A stretch of DNA of 64,000 nucleotides. It comes from Janthinobacterium sp. 67. Lineage in GTDB: Bacteria > Pseudomonadota > Gammaproteobacteria > Burkholderiales > Burkholderiaceae_D. This document shows, piece after piece, positions 2 to 44,541 of the stretch (its first letter is position 1; each line of letters opens with the position of its first letter). The notes under the pieces are model-generated. The model saw nothing but the letters and a program-made list of their open reading frames with translations. It was not told where the DNA came from and searched no databases. The stretch spans positions 248,001-312,000 of the forward strand of contig NZ_PGES01000001.1 in NCBI RefSeq assembly GCF_002797895.1. Direction: 5' to 3'. Made by a program: the position numbers and the translations under genes.

Positions 2-970
2 ATTTCTCCTGCTTTTGCCTCGGTACTTGCCAGCGGCCGCGCCCAGTTCAACGGCCGTGCGGCGGAAGCGCGCCGGCGCTTTCCCGCGCTCGACATGGCC
101 GCCTTCGGCGCCTTCCTGCACGACGGCGTCGATCCGCTGGTGCTGGCCGTGGCCGCCGCCGCGCCCGAGCGCGTGGGCGGCGTCACCCTGGCCGCCTACG
201 ACATGGCCCTGGAACTGGTGGGTCACGGCCTGGCCGGTCCTGCCGCGAAAAATCCGTTCTTGAATACCGTGTGGCGCGAACTGGCGCCGCTGTTTGCGCC
301 GCTGCTGGCGACGGCGCCCGTGGATGTATTGGGCATGCTCAGCAACGCCGCCATCCACATCGCCTCCGTGGCGGGCGCGCGGCCCGCGCAGTGGCAAGCC
401 GGGATGGCTGCCGTGGCGCCGCAAGTGGGCAGCGTCGCGCAGCTGCGCGCCGTGGGCCAGGTGCTGGCCTGGCGCGCCGGCGTCGCGCATTTCCGCCAGG
501 GCGCGCTGGCTGCCGCCGACACCTTGCCACCGGCGCTGGCGCTGGCCGCGTTTGACGAGCCGGGTGCGCAATGGCCGCAGGTGCATGCACAGCTGCTGGA
601 CTATCCGTGGCGCGGCAATGCCGAGGGCAGGGAGTTCGGCAGCTTCAGCGGCCTCGGTGGCGATTTCGGCACGCCGCCGCAAGTGCGCGCAACAAACGAC
701 GGTTTTATCGTGCGCAGCGCCGAGCGCCATTACCTGCTGGTGGCCGACGCCTATGGCGCCGTGCTGCACAGCGCCACGGCGCAGGAGTATGAGCAGGCCA
801 CTACCGGCATGCCATCGTCCGTGCGCCTCGACGGGGCCACCGTGCACGTCGGCGCGCGCAGCATCGCGCTCGACCTGCCGGCCGGCGACATCGCCATCGC
901 CGCGAATGCGCATACCTTGGCCATTACGTCGCCGTGGACGCACGCGATCCGCCTGCTGCCGCTCGCATGA
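2..970 (+). CDS. Unknown protein, 5' end outside window
   Basis: The frame is open from base 2, and the residues before the first internal Met (base 95) read like protein, so I treat the gene as cut by the window edge. About 322 residues are visible. The protein is Ala-rich with no signal peptide or obvious membrane segment. The N-terminal two thirds look helical; the C-terminal 120 residues have short alternating hydrophobic stretches that look beta-rich. I recognise no family. Its stop overlaps the next start by 4 bp (ATGA), so it is translationally coupled to the zincin/VWA gene. VWA proteins of this kind often sit beside a MoxR AAA+ ATPase, which could lie just upstream; that is inference only. 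Confidence 0.7.
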   Translation: MSPAFASVLASGRAQFNGRAAEARRRFPALDMAAFGAFLHDGVDPLVLAVAAAAPERVGGVTLAAYDMALELVGHGLAGPAAKNPFLNTVWRELAPLFAPLLATAPVDVLGMLSNAAIHIASVAGARPAQWQAGMAAVAPQVGSVAQLRAVGQVLAWRAGVAHFRQGALAAADTLPPALALAAFDEPGAQWPQVHAQLLDYPWRGNAEGREFGSFSGLGGDFGTPPQVRATNDGFIVRSAERHYLLVADAYGAVLHSATAQEYEQATTGMPSSVRLDGATVHVGARSIALDLPAGDIAIAANAHTLAITSPWTHAIRLLPLA

Positions 971-2724
971 AGACGACCGCCGACACCGCGCTGATCGACG
1001 CCTGGCGCGCCGCCTGGCCCGAAGCCCTGGCCGTGTGGAGCAAATTCACGCGCTTGCGCGATCCGAGCCTGTGCGCCAGTCGCGTCGAGGCCAGCAAGCA
1101 AGGCTTGTCCGGCAGTTTCGCCATGATACGGCTGCTGGACCAGAGCGTCGTGGTGGACTTGCCGCTGGTGACGGAGCTGGGCCTGGACGACTATGCGCTG
1201 GAAGTGCTCGCCCATGAAATCGGCCACCACATCCTCGCGCCGGGCAGCGCCAGTGACCAGTTCCGCCTGCTGGCGCGCATGCGCCGCGCCTTGCCGACCC
1301 TGGAACAGCACGCGCCCATGGTGGCCAATCTGTACACGGACCTGTTCATCAACGACCGCCTGCAGCGCCAGGCGAACCTGCGCATGGCCGATATCTACCG
1401 CAAGCTGGAGCAGGGACGCTCTGTGGAAGCCAAGGCCAACGGCGGCGTATGGACCCTGTACATGCGCATCTATGAAAACCTGTGGCAGCTGGAAAAGGGA
1501 GAGCTCGGTGGCGGCCACGCTGACGAGCGGCTGGACACGGACGCCTGGCTCGGCGCGCGCCTGATACGCGTCTACGCGAACGACTGGATGCTGGCGGCGG
1601 GCCGCTTCGCCACCTTGCTGCTGCCTTACCTGGTGGAAGACACGGACGCTCTGAGCCCCAGCCGCTATCTGCTCGATACGCGCGACGCGGCGCGCGGCTG
1701 CCAGACGTATGGCGCGCAGCAGATCGAGGATGACGAGGAGGACGGCGCCATCCATCCCGTGCACGACAAACGCATCTCGGGCCTCGACGGGGACGAAGCG
1801 CCTGCAGAGCCGGCGGCCAGGCAGGGCGGCGGCCAGCTGCGCGAACCGTTCGAACTGGGCGACATTCTAAAGGCGTCGGGCGTGGACCTGAGCGACCATG
1901 AAATCGCCATCCGCTATTACCGCGAACGGGCCTTGCCGCACCTGGTGGCCTTCCCCAGCCGCCCCGCGCCCGAGTCGCAGGAGCCGCAGATGGAAGGGCT
2001 GGAACCGTGGGAAATCGGCGACCCGCTGGAAGACATCGACTGGCTGCAATCGGTGATGCAGTCGCCGCGCCCCGTGCCGGGCGTGACCACCGTGCGCCGC
2101 GTGTATGGCCGCGAACCGGCGCGCGCCATCGATGCCGTGCCCGTCGACCTCGACATGTACGTGGACAGTTCCGGCTCCATGCCGAACCCGCAGGCGCACA
2201 CCTCGTTTTTGACCCTGGCTGGCGCCGTCATCGCGCTATCGGCCTTGCGCGCCGGCGCGAAAGTACAGGTGACCCTGTGGAGCGGCAAGAACGAAGTGAT
2301 GCAAACGCCGGGTTTCGTGCGCGATGAAGACATGATCCTGGGCGTGCTGACGGAATTTTTCGGCGGCGGCACCTGCTTCCCCATCCACCGCCTGCGCCAG
2401 ACCTATGCGGCAAAGCGCGAGCGGCCCGCGCACATTTTGATGATTTCCGACGACGGCATCACTACCATGTTCGACAAGGATGAGCTGGGCAACAGCGGCT
2501 GGGATATCTCGGCGAAAGCGCTGGCCCAGGGCGGCGCGGGCGGCACCATGGCCCTGAACCTGGAGCGCGACTGGGAGGGCGCGGCCAGCCACAAATGGCT
2601 GCAGAAAACCTATGACGACTTGAAGCGCGCGCGCCGCGAGCAGGGCTGGGACATCCACGCCGTCGAGCGCTACGAGGACTTGCTGGACTTTGCGCGGGCG
2701 TTCAGCCGCAGGCATTATGTTTAA
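967..2724 (+). CDS. VWA-domain protein with N-terminal HEXXH zincin motif
   Basis: 585 aa from the ATG in the ATGA overlap; an in-frame ATG 33 bp upstream lies inside the preceding gene and is less likely. Residues 83-87 are HEIGH, the HEXXH zinc-binding motif of metallopeptidases, in a helical N-terminal domain. Residues 400-404 are DSSGS, the DxSxS metal-ion (MIDAS) motif of von Willebrand A domains, followed by a GGGT stretch and an SDDG stretch that fit the remaining MIDAS residues. A Glu/Asp-rich linker lies between the domains near residues 260-290. VWA proteins act as adaptors or chelatase-like partners of MoxR ATPases. Peptidase activity is possible but unproven. The protein is soluble, with no signal peptide. 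Confidence 0.85.
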   Translation: MKTTADTALIDAWRAAWPEALAVWSKFTRLRDPSLCASRVEASKQGLSGSFAMIRLLDQSVVVDLPLVTELGLDDYALEVLAHEIGHHILAPGSASDQFRLLARMRRALPTLEQHAPMVANLYTDLFINDRLQRQANLRMADIYRKLEQGRSVEAKANGGVWTLYMRIYENLWQLEKGELGGGHADERLDTDAWLGARLIRVYANDWMLAAGRFATLLLPYLVEDTDALSPSRYLLDTRDAARGCQTYGAQQIEDDEEDGAIHPVHDKRISGLDGDEAPAEPAARQGGGQLREPFELGDILKASGVDLSDHEIAIRYYRERALPHLVAFPSRPAPESQEPQMEGLEPWEIGDPLEDIDWLQSVMQSPRPVPGVTTVRRVYGREPARAIDAVPVDLDMYVDSSGSMPNPQAHTSFLTLAGAVIALSALRAGAKVQVTLWSGKNEVMQTPGFVRDEDMILGVLTEFFGGGTCFPIHRLRQTYAAKRERPAHILMISDDGITTMFDKDELGNSGWDISAKALAQGGAGGTMALNLERDWEGAASHKWLQKTYDDLKRARREQGWDIHAVERYEDLLDFARAFSRRHYV

Positions 2725-2745
2725 ATTACCCCAAAGTCTAAACCT

Positions 2746-2772
2746 GGGGTCGGACCCTCAGGGTCCGACCCC
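2746..2772. repeat. 27-bp perfect palindrome (GGGGTCGGACCC family)
   Basis: Arms GGGGTCGGACCC (2746-2757) and GGGTCCGACCCC (2761-2772) are exact reverse complements separated by TCA. It lies in the 87-bp gap between the VWA gene and the next start, inside what otherwise looks like one operon. A relative with the same frame of bases, followed by the same ACTTG, lies at 44511-44541. It could fold as a hairpin in either transcript and act as an attenuator or as an mRNA-stabilising element. Confidence 0.8.
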
Positions 2773-2811
2773 GGCACTTGTATTTTGGGGTTGGAATTTC
2801 AAAGTAAAACG

Positions 2812-3405
2812 ATGAATACTCCTGGCCCACTGCTCGAAATCCTGACCCACCGCCTGGCCGACACGCCCGTCGAATTCCTCGCCGAGCCCCGCATCGCCGG
2901 GGTCGCCAATGCGCAGGCCGTGGCCGTGGCCGCGCTGGTCAACGACATTTTGCTGCTGCATGGCGCGCGCGCGCCGGCCGCGTCGCTGCAGGGTTTTGTC
3001 GGCGCGCAGGTGAAGGCGGACCGCAACCGGCTGGCGCTGGCCATGATCGTGTGCTGGCTGCTTGCCGACGACTGGTTCACCGCGCAGCAGTTGCCGCAGC
3101 CAGCCTTGCTGCAGGTGCTGGGCGAGGCGGCGCGCGAACTGGCCGCTGCCACGCCGGCCCACCAGTTTACGCAAGACCCCGAGCGGCGCGAGGAACTGGC
3201 GCGCATCGTGCTGGCGCGCCTCGGCTTTCGACCGCGTGACGAAAGCGTGGCGCAGGCCACGGACCGATTGTCCGCCATCAGCGGCACGGAGCGCCGCCGC
3301 CTGCTCGACGCGAGCCGGCTGGCCGAGCAGCGCGCGCGCGAAATCCGCGAAGCGCTGGCGAAAAAGGCGGCCGAGGAATCGGCCGACAAGTGGTCGCGCG
3401 AATGA
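2812..3405 (+). CDS. Small helical protein of unknown function
   Basis: 197 aa from the ATG at 2812; a TTG 27 bp upstream is also in frame but follows the palindrome directly and has no ribosome site. The protein is predicted mostly helical, with a hydrophobic stretch near residues 72-80 and a strongly charged Arg/Glu/Lys/Ala C-terminus (about residues 150-197) that looks like a coiled coil. No family recognised. Its stop overlaps the start of the PaaK-like gene by ATGA. The position between the VWA gene and the adenylate-forming enzyme suggests a structural or adaptor subunit of the same system (inference). Confidence 0.75.
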   Translation: MNTPGPLLEILTHRLADTPVEFLAEPRIAGVANAQAVAVAALVNDILLLHGARAPAASLQGFVGAQVKADRNRLALAMIVCWLLADDWFTAQQLPQPALLQVLGEAARELAAATPAHQFTQDPERREELARIVLARLGFRPRDESVAQATDRLSAISGTERRRLLDASRLAEQRAREIREALAKKAAEESADKWSRE

Positions 3406-4781
3406 CGCTCGCTGGCAAACCTGACGTCAACCTGCCTGGCGGCGCCTGGGCATCGGATCGCGACTACTGTCCCACCCTGACGCCGGCGGGCGCGCGCATG
3501 CTGGCGCACTTGCGCAGCCATCCTTGCGCCCCCGTCTACCGCAACCGCAGCGGCAACAAGCTGCTGGCCGGGGAAGTGGAAGCGTTGCGCGCCTACGAGC
3601 AGGAAGTCATGGACGCGGTAGCCGCTTGGAATGCCGATGCGCCGCCGTCCTGGCTGGCGGATTTTCTCAAGACGGCCTACGCCACGGTGCCGCATTACCG
3701 CGCCTGCGGCTCGCCGCCCGCGCGCCTTGCGGACGTGGCACCCGTCAGCCGCGCCGAGCTGGCCCACGACATCGCCGCCTTCGTGCCCGACGATGCGGAC
3801 CTGGCGCGCATGATCAATTTCCAGACGACAGGCACCACGGGCCACCCGCTGCTGATCGCTTCGCACCCGCTGGTGGCGGGGCGCTACCTGGCTTTCCACA
3901 AGCGCGCGCTGCGCCGCTTCGGCGTGACCCTGCGCCATGGCGCGGGACAGGTGGGCGTGATGCTGCTGGGGCACCAGCGCCGCTGCTTCACCTATGTTTC
4001 CGTCACGCCCACGATGAACGAATCGGGCCTGGCGAAGATCAACCTGCACGTGGACGACTGGCGCGACCCGGAAGACCGCGCGCGCTACCTCGATGCCATG
4101 GCGCCCGAGCTGATCGCGGGCGACCCCATTTCGTTTGCCGAGTTGCTGACCTTGCCCATGACGCACAAGCCGGCCGCATTGATGTCCGTGTCGATGATGC
4201 TCTTGCCCGGCATGCGCGCGCGCCTGGAACAGCGTTTCGGCTGCCCCGTGCTCGATATCTATTCGCTCAATGAAGTGGGACCCGTCGCCGTCTACGATGA
4301 ACAGGCGGGCGGCCACGTGCTGCTGCAGCACCGGCTGTACGTGGAAATCCTCGATGCTGCGGGCCAGCCCGTGCCCGAGGGCGCGCGCGGCGAAATCACG
4401 GTGACGGGCGGCTTCAATTTCTGCCTGCCGCTCGTGCGTTACCGCACCGGCGATTACGCTTCGCTGGCGCATGGCCCGCACGGTCCCGTGCTGGTGGGGC
4501 TGGCGGGACGCAGCCCTTTGCGCTATCGCACGGTCAACGGCGAATGGATCAACAATATCGACATCACGCACGCCTTGAAACCGCTGGCCATCGCCCTGTT
4601 CGGCGTGCACCAGCACGGCGACGGCGCCATCGCGCTGCGCCTGGCGCCGGGCGCCATGCCGCAGGCTGACCGGGCGCGCGCCTTGCTCGCGCCATTTTTC
4701 GGCGACATCGCGGTCGAGACTTTGCTGGCGGAAGACAAGATCATTCAATACACCTCGGATTTGCAGGAAGCGGCAGCATGA
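3402..4781 (+). CDS. PaaK-like adenylate-forming enzyme (AMP-binding)
   Basis: 459 aa. Residues 142-147 (TTGTTG, followed by HP) are the phosphate-binding loop of the acyl-adenylate superfamily. Further along are an SLNEVGP segment at the position of the adenine-binding YxxTE motif and YRTGDYA, the ATP-ribose motif. The overall form resembles phenylacetate-CoA ligase (PaaK) rather than long-chain acyl-CoA synthetases. A lysine near the C-terminus (in EDKIIQY) could be the catalytic Lys. No thiolation domain or other carrier protein is visible nearby, so the acyl acceptor is unknown. ATGA overlaps on both sides couple it to the small helical protein and to the NadR-like gene. Confidence 0.85.
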   Translation: MTLAGKPDVNLPGGAWASDRDYCPTLTPAGARMLAHLRSHPCAPVYRNRSGNKLLAGEVEALRAYEQEVMDAVAAWNADAPPSWLADFLKTAYATVPHYRACGSPPARLADVAPVSRAELAHDIAAFVPDDADLARMINFQTTGTTGHPLLIASHPLVAGRYLAFHKRALRRFGVTLRHGAGQVGVMLLGHQRRCFTYVSVTPTMNESGLAKINLHVDDWRDPEDRARYLDAMAPELIAGDPISFAELLTLPMTHKPAALMSVSMMLLPGMRARLEQRFGCPVLDIYSLNEVGPVAVYDEQAGGHVLLQHRLYVEILDAAGQPVPEGARGEITVTGGFNFCLPLVRYRTGDYASLAHGPHGPVLVGLAGRSPLRYRTVNGEWINNIDITHALKPLAIALFGVHQHGDGAIALRLAPGAMPQADRARALLAPFFGDIAVETLLAEDKIIQYTSDLQEAAA

Positions 4782-5818
4782 ACCTTTACAAGCGCGGCCT
4801 CGTGGTCGGCAAATTCTGCCCGCTGCACCAGGGCCATGAACTGTTGATTGAGCGTGCAGGTGTCGCCAGCGAAGAACTGCTGGTGGTCAGCTACACCAAG
4901 CCCGAATTTCCCGGCTGCGCGCCGGCGCGCAGGGACGGTTGGCTGCGCGCGCAGTTCCCGCAAGCGCGCATCGTCGTGCTGGACGATGCGCGCCTGGCCG
5001 CCCTCTGTGCGGCGCGCGGCGTGCCTGCGCGGACCTTGCCGCACAACGACGACGATGGCGACGCGCATCGCCACTTCATGGGCTGGCTGTGCTGGACGGT
5101 GCTGGAACTGCCCGTCGATGCCGTGTTTACCAGCGAAGACTATGGCCCCGGTTTTGCACAGGTACTGGAACGGCATTATGCCAGCGGGCCGGTGGCCCAC
5201 GTGAGCGTGGATCAGGCGAGAGCGGCGGTGCCCGTGTCGGGCACGCGGGTAAGGCAAGATCCGCATGCGCACAGCGCCTTCTTGTCACCTGTCGTTTACG
5301 CCAGCTTTGTCACGCGCGTGTGCGTGCTCGGCGGCGAATCGAGCGGCAAGACGACCTTGACGGCCGCGCTGGCGGCGCATTTCGAGACGGCCTGGGTGGC
5401 CGAGTATGGCCGCGAATTGTGGGAACGCCAGGATGGCGTGTTGGCGTATGATGATTTGCTCAAGATCGGCCGCGAGCAGCTGCGCCGCGAAGCGCATGCG
5501 CTGTTGGCCGCGCGGCGCTGGCTGTTTTGCGACACCTCGCCCATGACCACGTATTTCTACTGCGTCGAGATGTTCGGCAAGGCCGAGCAGGAACTGGCTC
5601 AGCTGGCCGAACACCGCTACGACCTGGTGCTGCTGTGCGCCCCCGACTTCCCGTTCATCCAGGACGGCACGCGCCGCGACGAGGATTTCCGCGCGCGCCA
5701 GCATGCGTGGTACCAGGCCGAACTGGCGCGGCGCGGCATTGCCTATGTCAATGTAGCAGGCACGGTCGCAGACAGGGTCGCGCAAGTCGCCCAGTTGCTC
5801 GCGCGTAGGTCGGATTAG
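4778..5818 (+). CDS. NadR-like NMN adenylyltransferase / ribosylnicotinamide kinase
   Basis: 346 aa with two domains. The N-terminal domain has HQGH (17-20), the nucleotidyltransferase HxGH motif, and SGTRVR (154-159), the paired ISTxxR-type motif. The C-terminal domain begins with the P-loop GESSGKTT (186-193), as in the NadR kinase domain. NadR family enzymes make NAD from NMN and phosphorylate nicotinamide riboside. The N-terminal DNA-binding helix-turn-helix of enteric NadR is missing. It is the last gene of the operon, and the stop TAG lies inside the REP-like element that starts at 5805. No nicotinamide riboside transporter (PnuC) is next to it, so salvage may not be its only role. Confidence 0.88.
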   Translation: MNLYKRGLVVGKFCPLHQGHELLIERAGVASEELLVVSYTKPEFPGCAPARRDGWLRAQFPQARIVVLDDARLAALCAARGVPARTLPHNDDDGDAHRHFMGWLCWTVLELPVDAVFTSEDYGPGFAQVLERHYASGPVAHVSVDQARAAVPVSGTRVRQDPHAHSAFLSPVVYASFVTRVCVLGGESSGKTTLTAALAAHFETAWVAEYGRELWERQDGVLAYDDLLKIGREQLRREAHALLAARRWLFCDTSPMTTYFYCVEMFGKAEQELAQLAEHRYDLVLLCAPDFPFIQDGTRRDEDFRARQHAWYQAELARRGIAYVNVAGTVADRVAQVAQLLARRSD

Positions 5819-5888
5819 CGCGCGAGCGCGTAATCCGACATGGCACGCCAACAATGATGTCGGATTACGCTTCGCTAATCCGACCTAC
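5805..5888. repeat. REP-like double palindrome, copy 1
   Basis: Outer arms GTAGGTCGGATTAGCG and CGCTAATCCGACCTAC are exact complements. Each half is itself a palindrome (GTCGGATTA ... TAATCCGAC), with CCAACAATG between the halves. This resembles a REP pair. The element sits between two convergent genes and supplies both stop codons: TAG at 5816-5818 for the NadR-like gene and the complementary CTA at 5885-5887 for the TetR gene. It could serve as a bidirectional terminator. Same orientation as the copies at 41857 and 42065. Confidence 0.88.
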
Positions 5889-6442
5889 GCGGTAAAAGCC
5901 GTGTTCACGGCTTTCAGAATCTCGTCCGAAAACGCGTCATCGTCGATGGCGCGCGCCAGCGCCACGGCGCCCACCATGGCCGACAGCATGACGATGGCGT
6001 CCTGGCGCGCGTTGCTCTTTTTCTGCCACGGGAAATGCGTGGCCAGCTTGCCGATGATGGCTTTCAGGTGAAAAGTAAACGCTGGGCGCACGGCCGGCTG
6101 CTTGCGCGCGTCGCCCGCCAGGGCGGCCAGCAGACAGCCATCGCCCGGCGCATCGCGGTGGGCCGCGCTCACGTAATCGCGCACGTACTGGCGCATCGTT
6201 TCCGGGCTGATGGTCGCCGCATCGAGCGCCACGCGCGAGTGTTCCGAGCCGTGCAGGGTGCTTTCGGCCATCAGCGCTTCCTTCGAGGCGAAGTGGTTGT
6301 AGAAGGGGCCGTGCGTGAGTCCCGTCGCCTGCATGATCTGTCCCACGCTGACGCCGTCGTAGCCTTTTTCACGGAACAGCCGCGCCGCCTGCGTCAGGAT
6401 GCGCTGGTGCTTTTCGGCGGTTTCTTCGGCGGGATAACGCAT
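5885..6442 (-). CDS. TetR/AcrR family repressor
   Basis: 185 aa. The N-terminal 50 residues hold the TetR helix-turn-helix (KHQRILTQAARLFREKGYDG then GLTHGPFYNHFASKEAL), and the helical remainder is the ligand-binding and dimerisation domain, close to the TetR_C_33/YxaF type. It is divergent from the SDR gene across a 164-bp region with three regularly spaced operators, so it most likely represses itself and the SDR gene. The inducer is not predictable. The last codons and the stop come from the REP-like element. Confidence 0.9.
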   Translation of the reverse strand: MRYPAEETAEKHQRILTQAARLFREKGYDGVSVGQIMQATGLTHGPFYNHFASKEALMAESTLHGSEHSRVALDAATISPETMRQYVRDYVSAAHRDAPGDGCLLAALAGDARKQPAVRPAFTFHLKAIIGKLATHFPWQKKSNARQDAIVMLSAMVGAVALARAIDDDAFSDEILKAVNTAFTA

Positions 6443-44510: not shown

Positions 44511-44541
44511 CCGGGGTCGTACCCTGAGGGTACGACCCCGG
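44511..44541. repeat. 31-bp perfect palindrome (GGGGTCGNACCCT family)
   Basis: Arms CCGGGGTCGTACCCT (44511-44525) and AGGGTACGACCCCGG (44527-44541) are exact complements around a single G. It lies between two convergent genes (epsC and the META gene). Same family as 2746-2772; both are followed by ACTTG on the right. Confidence 0.85.

Follow-up and report, generated by a model that had tools for sequence, protein, structure and literature searches.

The closest described relatives of the gene set reported here are machines built from a MoxR-type AAA+ ATPase and a protein with a VWA domain. NorQ/NorD, CbbQ/CbbO and RavA/ViaA are two-component remodelling machines of this kind, each with a dedicated client; their clients are other ones, and the third protein and the enzyme genes of the present set are not known to be part of them. 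The general MoxR-VWA model, as given in the sections of Kaur et al. (2020; PMC7159879) that deal with such systems, is that the metal-ion-dependent adhesion site (MIDAS) of the VWA domain captures a peptide of the client and the AAA+ ring remodels the client; in the ternary systems covered there, the place of the third component is taken by VMAP, iSTAND, FtsH or a protein with a beta-propeller. The window analysed here, a stretch of 64,000 bases (bases 248001-312000 of contig 1) of the 6.45-Mb genome of Janthinobacterium sp. 67, contains the last five genes of a seven-gene operon, moxR-p155-p323-zVWA-hel-paaK-nadR, and the gene coordinates bear out the placement of these five, all on the + strand, by a first-pass annotation. 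The component classes and their genetic coupling are well supported, and the operon is a variation on the MoxR-VWA theme that is conserved across a wide range of bacteria and apparently undescribed, as judged from open-licence papers and from the lack of family models. It is proposed, with somewhat less than even confidence, that in this conserved system a MoxR-VWA machine acts on a unit formed by the helical protein Hel and a PaaK-like adenylate-forming enzyme, and that the system has its own supply of nicotinamide adenine dinucleotide (NAD).

Comparison of loci and genomes shows which genes make up the set, in what order they stand, to which families their products belong and that, in the genomes searched, the set is present as a whole or not at all. 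Scanning of a species-genome collection for zVWA, the zincin-VWA protein, yielded 42 loci, the closest named relatives being Janthinobacterium; with the window locus and four others (L050, L051, L059, L060), 47 loci were compared, all of them found via zVWA. Genes were counted as present if they lay anywhere in a locus, which reached up to about 9 kb on each side, and denominators refer to loci with enough flanking sequence to be assessed. On this basis moxR is present in 41 of 43 loci, p323 in 42 of 43, hel and paaK each in 41 of 41, and nadR in 37 of 41, and the order moxR-p323-zVWA-hel-paaK is nearly constant. Scattering of the genes in most relatives, the outcome that the first-pass annotation had named as refuting a linked set, is not what was found; the genes form one conserved set that includes the NadR-like gene. 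The interpretation offered in that annotation is supported in part. Beyond Janthinobacterium, it occurs in Paucimonas, Undibacterium, Massilia, Duganella, Rugamonas, Hahella and other Pseudomonadota, and on contigs of metagenome-assembled genomes labelled Acidobacteria, Verrucomicrobia, Chloroflexi and Spirochaetes, labels of a kind that can be wrong. The system is rare and all-or-none within the genomes searched: of 398 genomes of the phylum, separate profile searches with MoxR and Hel picked out the same 3, zVWA and Hel matched the same 32 of 120 relatives, all inside the genus, and zVWA was found in 3 of 200 genomes drawn from the order. An empty site is seen in one cluster-free genome of the genus (G214), in which the cluster flanks are 408 bases apart, compared with about 10.5 kb in the window's genome. 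Protein-database searches returned 1826 Hel and 3061 zVWA relatives, each among 8000 scored candidates only, and for each protein 120 listed relatives had no Pfam domain and no informative name. No match to zVWA was found in 50,697 phage records (tblastn, E 0.001), in 72,556 plasmid records, or in viral contigs by a scan that depends on exact short peptide patterns, which argues against origin from a mobile element. Open-licence PMC text yielded no description of the gene set, and none pairing MoxR with PaaK or MoxR with PnuC.

The presumed machine begins with moxR (L004 5945-7525, 526 amino acids), which lies upstream of the window; L004 is the window locus plus 8 kb of upstream sequence, and window coordinates are L004 coordinates minus 8000. 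Whether a MoxR gene sits in that position was a check proposed in the first-pass annotation, and the protein scores above the Pfam cut-offs for AAA_3 (32.2 bits, cut-off 27) and AAA_lid_2 (31.4 bits, cut-off 22.7). Its P-loop, GGPGRGKT, is intact in 12 of 12 aligned rows, and with a mean column identity of 75% over these rows and ratios of nonsynonymous to synonymous substitution rates (dN/dS) of 0.02-0.04 it is the most conserved protein of the operon. The zVWA protein (967-2724, + strand, 585 amino acids) has an N-terminal HEXXH zincin-like domain (HEIGHH, 1213-1230, residues 83-88) and a C-terminal VWA domain with the MIDAS motif DxSxS (D400-x-S402-x-S404, 2164-2178) and a further VWA residue, D495; the HEXXH, DxSxS and D do not vary among the 15 members aligned, in agreement with its first description as a HEXXH-plus-VWA protein. 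No Pfam family was matched at cut-off by the zVWA of the window (VWA_2, E 0.004; Peptidase_M48, 12.4 bits versus 20.3), and among the 15 members a single Pfam peptidase match was found, at E 0.1. The gene p323 (+ strand) has its ATG at L004 7999, 2 bases before the first base of the interval described in the first-pass annotation, and its stop codon ends at window position 970; the predicted structure of its product (mean predicted local distance difference test score, pLDDT, 92.4) consists of a helical N-terminal domain and a C-terminal beta domain, and the resemblance of the latter to part of a beta-propeller is suggestive only. No Pfam or NCBIfam model matched p323 or Hel at a meaningful score.

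Because moxR, p323 and zVWA are adjacent, a MoxR, a vWA protein and a third conserved component are found in one operon, and by analogy with known MoxR-VWA pairs the three products probably form one machine. It most resembles the MoxR-vWA ternary systems, the beta-propeller subsystem above all, in having MoxR, a VWA cochaperone and a third protein with a possibly propeller-like domain encoded together. Compared with these systems as described in the pertinent sections of PMC7159879, however, zVWA has an N-terminal HEXXH domain and, judged by length, apparently too short a stretch beyond the VWA domain for a four-blade propeller (the VWA_2 match covers residues 399-495, leaving fewer than 91); the P-loop of MoxR is of the standard type; and the partners Hel, PaaK-like enzyme, NadR and PnuC appear to be fixed, where ternary systems have variable effectors, although in one genome, G131, a TCAD9-phosphatase gene lies upstream. 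NadR is not mentioned in the parts of that paper covering ternary systems. A vWA protein with an N-terminal metallopeptidase domain also adjoins MoxR in group 2.2 jumbo phages, but according to the passages of PMC7824862 on this pair it is tied to virion assembly and has no PaaK-like, Hel or NadR partner. The likeness to NorQ/NorD, CbbQ/CbbO and RavA/ViaA lies in the MoxR-VWA core and in the idea of a dedicated client.

The candidate client is encoded by the next two genes of the operon, hel (2812-3405, + strand, 197 amino acids) and paaK (3402-4781, + strand, 459 amino acids). Hel is predicted to be all-helical (pLDDT 91.4), and neither a PDB match for the model nor a Pfam match was found. 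Its C-terminal tail, ESADKWSRE in the window, is conserved and acidic-ended, with arginine followed by glutamate or aspartate in 25 of 25 aligned rows. A role of Hel as precursor peptide of a radical-SAM enzyme, for which the FxSxx peptide systems in the corresponding part of PMC7159879 serve as a comparison, is not favoured, since the tail is also kept in loci without a radical-SAM gene; nor is conservation of the tail as a by-product of the hel-paaK overlap, since the tail is kept where the two genes are 10, 22 and 77 bases apart (L032, L029 and L037, respectively). The PaaK-like protein was correctly described beforehand as an adenylate-forming enzyme: its profile matches solved PaaK-type ligases, its best NCBIfam match is NF045666 (E 7e-23, below the curated cut-off), and T142, G144, G147, E291, D351 and K446 are invariant in 17 of 17 rows, residues presumed to represent the P-loop, the glutamate of the LNExGP motif, the TGD aspartate and the C-terminal lysine. 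It scores just under the cut-off for Pfam AMP-binding (29.4 versus 29.9 bits) and at 42.7 bits against TIGR02155, the model for PaaK phenylacetate-CoA ligase, for which the curated cut-off is 646.3. Judged by sequence, the protein keeps the residues of adenylate-forming enzymes, yet is far from PaaK itself. In the loci compared, hel and paaK are adjacent wherever both are seen, and in three Chloroflexi loci (L037, L040, L049) they are duplicated together, with a radical-SAM gene between the copies; for these reasons the Hel-PaaK pair is the most likely client.

The last gene of the operon, nadR (4778-5818, + strand, 346 amino acids), encodes, as had been recognised in the first pass, nicotinamide mononucleotide (NMN) adenylyltransferase and ribosylnicotinamide-kinase domains; it encodes no helix-turn-helix domain. 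The protein matches TIGR01526 at E 3e-48 (164.8 bits, below the curated cut-off of 341.15), exceeds the Pfam cut-off for AAA_28, and its profile matches solved NadR proteins at E 3e-38 to 1e-68, the best three at 1e-62 to 1e-68. H17, G19, H20, S154 and R159 are invariant in 14 of 14 rows, two rows with the NMN adenylyltransferase (NMNAT) domain only included, and the conserved motifs of both catalytic domains are kept. Outside the genus, 11 of 21 assessable loci encode PnuC in or beside the cluster; within it, none of 20 does. Its presence in the set of some relatives makes salvage of nicotinamide riboside to NAD the simplest role for the NadR part, in place of the NAD-derived product first envisaged. 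Like the PnuC-NadR riboside salvage pair, the genes are adjacent and NadR has both catalytic domains; unlike that pair, they are embedded in a MoxR-VWA-Hel-PaaK set, and in the window's genome the PnuC of cluster type is encoded elsewhere in the chromosome. This orphan PnuC (C1:4708880; L054 5965-7455), far from the cluster, is 62% identical to the cluster PnuC of Paucimonas and matches PF04973 at 158.3 bits (cut-off 27.3). The other PnuC of the genome adjoins a kinase-only protein and is 30% identical to its best cluster match. Within the genus, all 32 genomes with the cluster have full-length NadR and none of the 8 others does, three of these eight being only 82-88% complete; a second PnuC is present in 32 of 32 and 1 of 8 (G214), respectively, only the copy of the window's genome having been compared in sequence with the cluster type.

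The possibility that NadR is specific to this system was rejected, as seven stand-alone NadRs, each with pnuC in its locus, are intermixed with cluster NadRs on the tree. In a search of 299 genomes drawn from the phylum (query the NadR of G112, E 1e-20), seven genomes had matches, three inside the cluster and four stand-alone with pnuC in the same locus. In the NadR tree, four stand-alone NadRs fall within a proteobacterial clade (support 100/100) and the G112 NadR falls outside it, whereas the G112 zVWA groups with proteobacterial zVWA (94/94, below the star of the tree program); the G112 NadR branch is long, the program warns of it, and its exact placement is unsure. Identity agrees with the tree, being 33% for the G112 NadR versus 52-57% for those of G295 and G353, genomes whose zVWA are about equally distant. 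In most loci that contain it, the pair pnuC-nadR follows paaK; in G112 it is upstream of moxR. The simplest reading of these sequence comparisons is that the riboside salvage pair joined the cluster more than once, and repeated recruitment suggests that the system requires NAD or its precursor. A radical-SAM enzyme is encoded in 7 of 21 assessable clusters outside the genus and 0 of 20 within; all seven proteins match PF04055 with the CxxxCxxC cysteines C11, C15 and C18 invariant. Against PADLOC, the radical-SAM protein of relatives matches viperin models at 52 bits, no better than NirJ (53 bits). The fullest order, moxR-p323-zVWA-rSAM-hel-paaK-pnuC-nadR, is found in Paucimonas (L026) and G295 (L059).

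For the complex, its client, the direction of its action, the role of NAD, the product and the physiological role, the following model is inferred. The MoxR AAA+ ring, the zincin-VWA cochaperone and p323 would constitute an ATP-driven remodelling or processing machine with the Hel-PaaK pair as its dedicated client, Hel serving the adenylate-forming enzyme as partner or adaptor and offering, in its conserved acidic-ended tail, a candidate ligand of the MIDAS. The machine would activate, mature or release the PaaK-like enzyme, which may convert a carboxylic acid through acyl-AMP to a thioester, ester or amide. Most likely, NadR and PnuC supply NAD: nicotinamide riboside from outside would be converted to NMN and NAD for the pathway, to which a radical-SAM enzyme may add a step in some lineages. 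Intact catalytic motifs in the zVWA, MoxR, PaaK-like, NadR and radical-SAM alignments count in favour of this model. Several observations weigh against it. The nadR gene is absent from 4 of 41 loci (L030, L035, L038, L042) and moxR from 2 of 43 (L030, L039), of which L039 also lacks p323 and L030 has a 5.3-kb stretch between zVWA and the remaining genes; the MIDAS threonine of the VWA domain is lost in L051; p323 is weakly conserved across phyla, with 19-28% identity in the most distant rows; a terminator-like hairpin (2744-2774) lies between zVWA and hel in the window; stand-alone pnuC-nadR pairs in cluster-free genomes mean that NadR is not cluster-specific; and in the Chloroflexi loci L037 and L049 the NadR-like protein consists solely of the NMNAT domain, a form less in keeping with riboside salvage. 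A bolder and improbable version is that the machine-controlled, Hel-bound enzyme acylates a protein, possibly the Hel tail, or a nicotinamide nucleotide delivered by PnuC and NadR, giving a novel modified protein or cofactor; if true, this would be a new class of chaperone-gated metabolic system.

An alternative but unlikely interpretation is a conflict system, anti-phage or self-limiting, akin to the MoxR-vWA ternary systems, in which p323 would act as sensor, MoxR-zVWA would set the threshold, the adenylating enzyme would be the effector and NadR-PnuC would restore NAD. In favour of this idea are a MoxR-VWA core accompanied by a third protein with a beta domain similar to a portion of a beta-propeller, the patchy presence of the cluster, and the most divergent zVWA locus, that of G131, in which a TCAD9 plus dual-specificity-phosphatase gene (L051 4235-6343) ends about 60 bases before moxR; TCAD9 is named as a vWA-MoxR-VMAP associate in the section of PMC10910872 concerned, and G131 is the only one of six genomes searched with a TCAD9 match over cut-off. 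However, the partner genes recur from lineage to lineage and do not give way to variable effectors; the MoxR P-loop is GGPGRGKT in all 12 rows rather than the GXXXTAKS frequent in beta-propeller systems; zVWA is unmatched in the phage, plasmid and viral sequences mentioned above; and the seven proteins gave one weak match only (mad8, E 0.046) against PADLOC 2.0.0. Defence is considered a weaker explanation than control of the Hel-PaaK unit by the machine.

The combination of an adenylate-forming enzyme, a nucleotidyltransferase and a radical-SAM enzyme could also indicate a biosynthetic cluster for a cofactor or metabolite derived from a nicotinamide nucleotide, supplied by NadR-PnuC, modified by the PaaK-like and radical-SAM enzymes, and inserted, either itself or a metal, into a target enzyme by MoxR-zVWA-p323. 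MoxR-VWA pairs are known for metal insertion (NorQD, in the relevant parts of PMC9976466 and PMC13036017), and retention of only the NMNAT domain in L037 and L049 would suit such a pathway; but the radical-SAM gene is optional, no linked target enzyme is seen, and NadR has nothing unusual about it, being accompanied by a transporter just as it is in the stand-alone salvage pairs. This explanation is quite unlikely. Very unlikely is the view that the system consists of moxR-p323-zVWA-hel-paaK only, with the NadR-like gene adjoining it for no functional reason. It would account for stand-alone pnuC-nadR pairs in cluster-free genomes, for the four loci without nadR, and for the PnuC beside a kinase-only protein elsewhere in the window's genome, but it does not readily explain why 37 of 41 assessable loci contain nadR, which is found to either side of the cluster, or why, among 40 genomes of the genus, full-length NadR occurs in exactly those that have the cluster.

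The genes of the operon are closely spaced. Three of the four joints in the window are ATGA overlaps (967-970, 3402-3405, 4778-4781); the fourth, zVWA-hel, is an 87-base gap, so the earlier count of four ATGA joints or close spacings was slightly generous. In the whole operon, only p155-p323, with 9 bases between the genes, and zVWA-hel depart from the ATGA overlap; at other loci the latter joint ranges from overlap or 1-3 bases up to 126 bases. A promoter consensus scan of L004 5000-14500 gave no + strand promoter-like site at any position and is hence uninformative about transcription of nadR. Compared with three Janthinobacterium loci, dN/dS lies between 0.02 and 0.24 in six genes and between 0.25 and 0.36 in p155, values at which the window genes behave as constrained. 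The gene p155 (L004 7522-7989, upstream of the window, 155 amino acids) lies between moxR and p323, is under the weakest constraint within the operon, and is present in 17 of 20 assessable Janthinobacterium loci and 0 of 23 others. Within the hairpin between zVWA and hel lies a perfect palindrome of 27 bases (2746-2772), which belongs to a repeat that also occurs elsewhere; a second copy with two mismatches is at 44513-44539 of the window, where none would be expected by chance, and only some Janthinobacterium loci carry the palindrome. A dispersed palindromic repeat of about 88 bases (5803-5890) starts at the end of nadR and encodes its last codons, with many copies, among the matches listed, in three related genomes (G203, G229, G209). 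In two Chloroflexi loci (L037 7795-8943, L040 7622-8962), genes for a proline racemase and a DAO-type FAD oxidoreductase lie between p323 and zVWA; they were considered as a hint to the substrate. In a Leptospiraceae locus the gene directly before moxR (L044 2188-4026) codes for a protein that combines VWA and CsgG-like domains, and in L041 moxR is preceded by the end of a CsgG-like gene.

The module is kept over large evolutionary distances and includes two families, p323 and Hel, that match no Pfam or NCBIfam model at a meaningful score. In an environmental genus, it offers a tractable case in which to study how a MoxR-VWA machine may act on an adenylate-forming enzyme and why such a system would have its own NAD supply.

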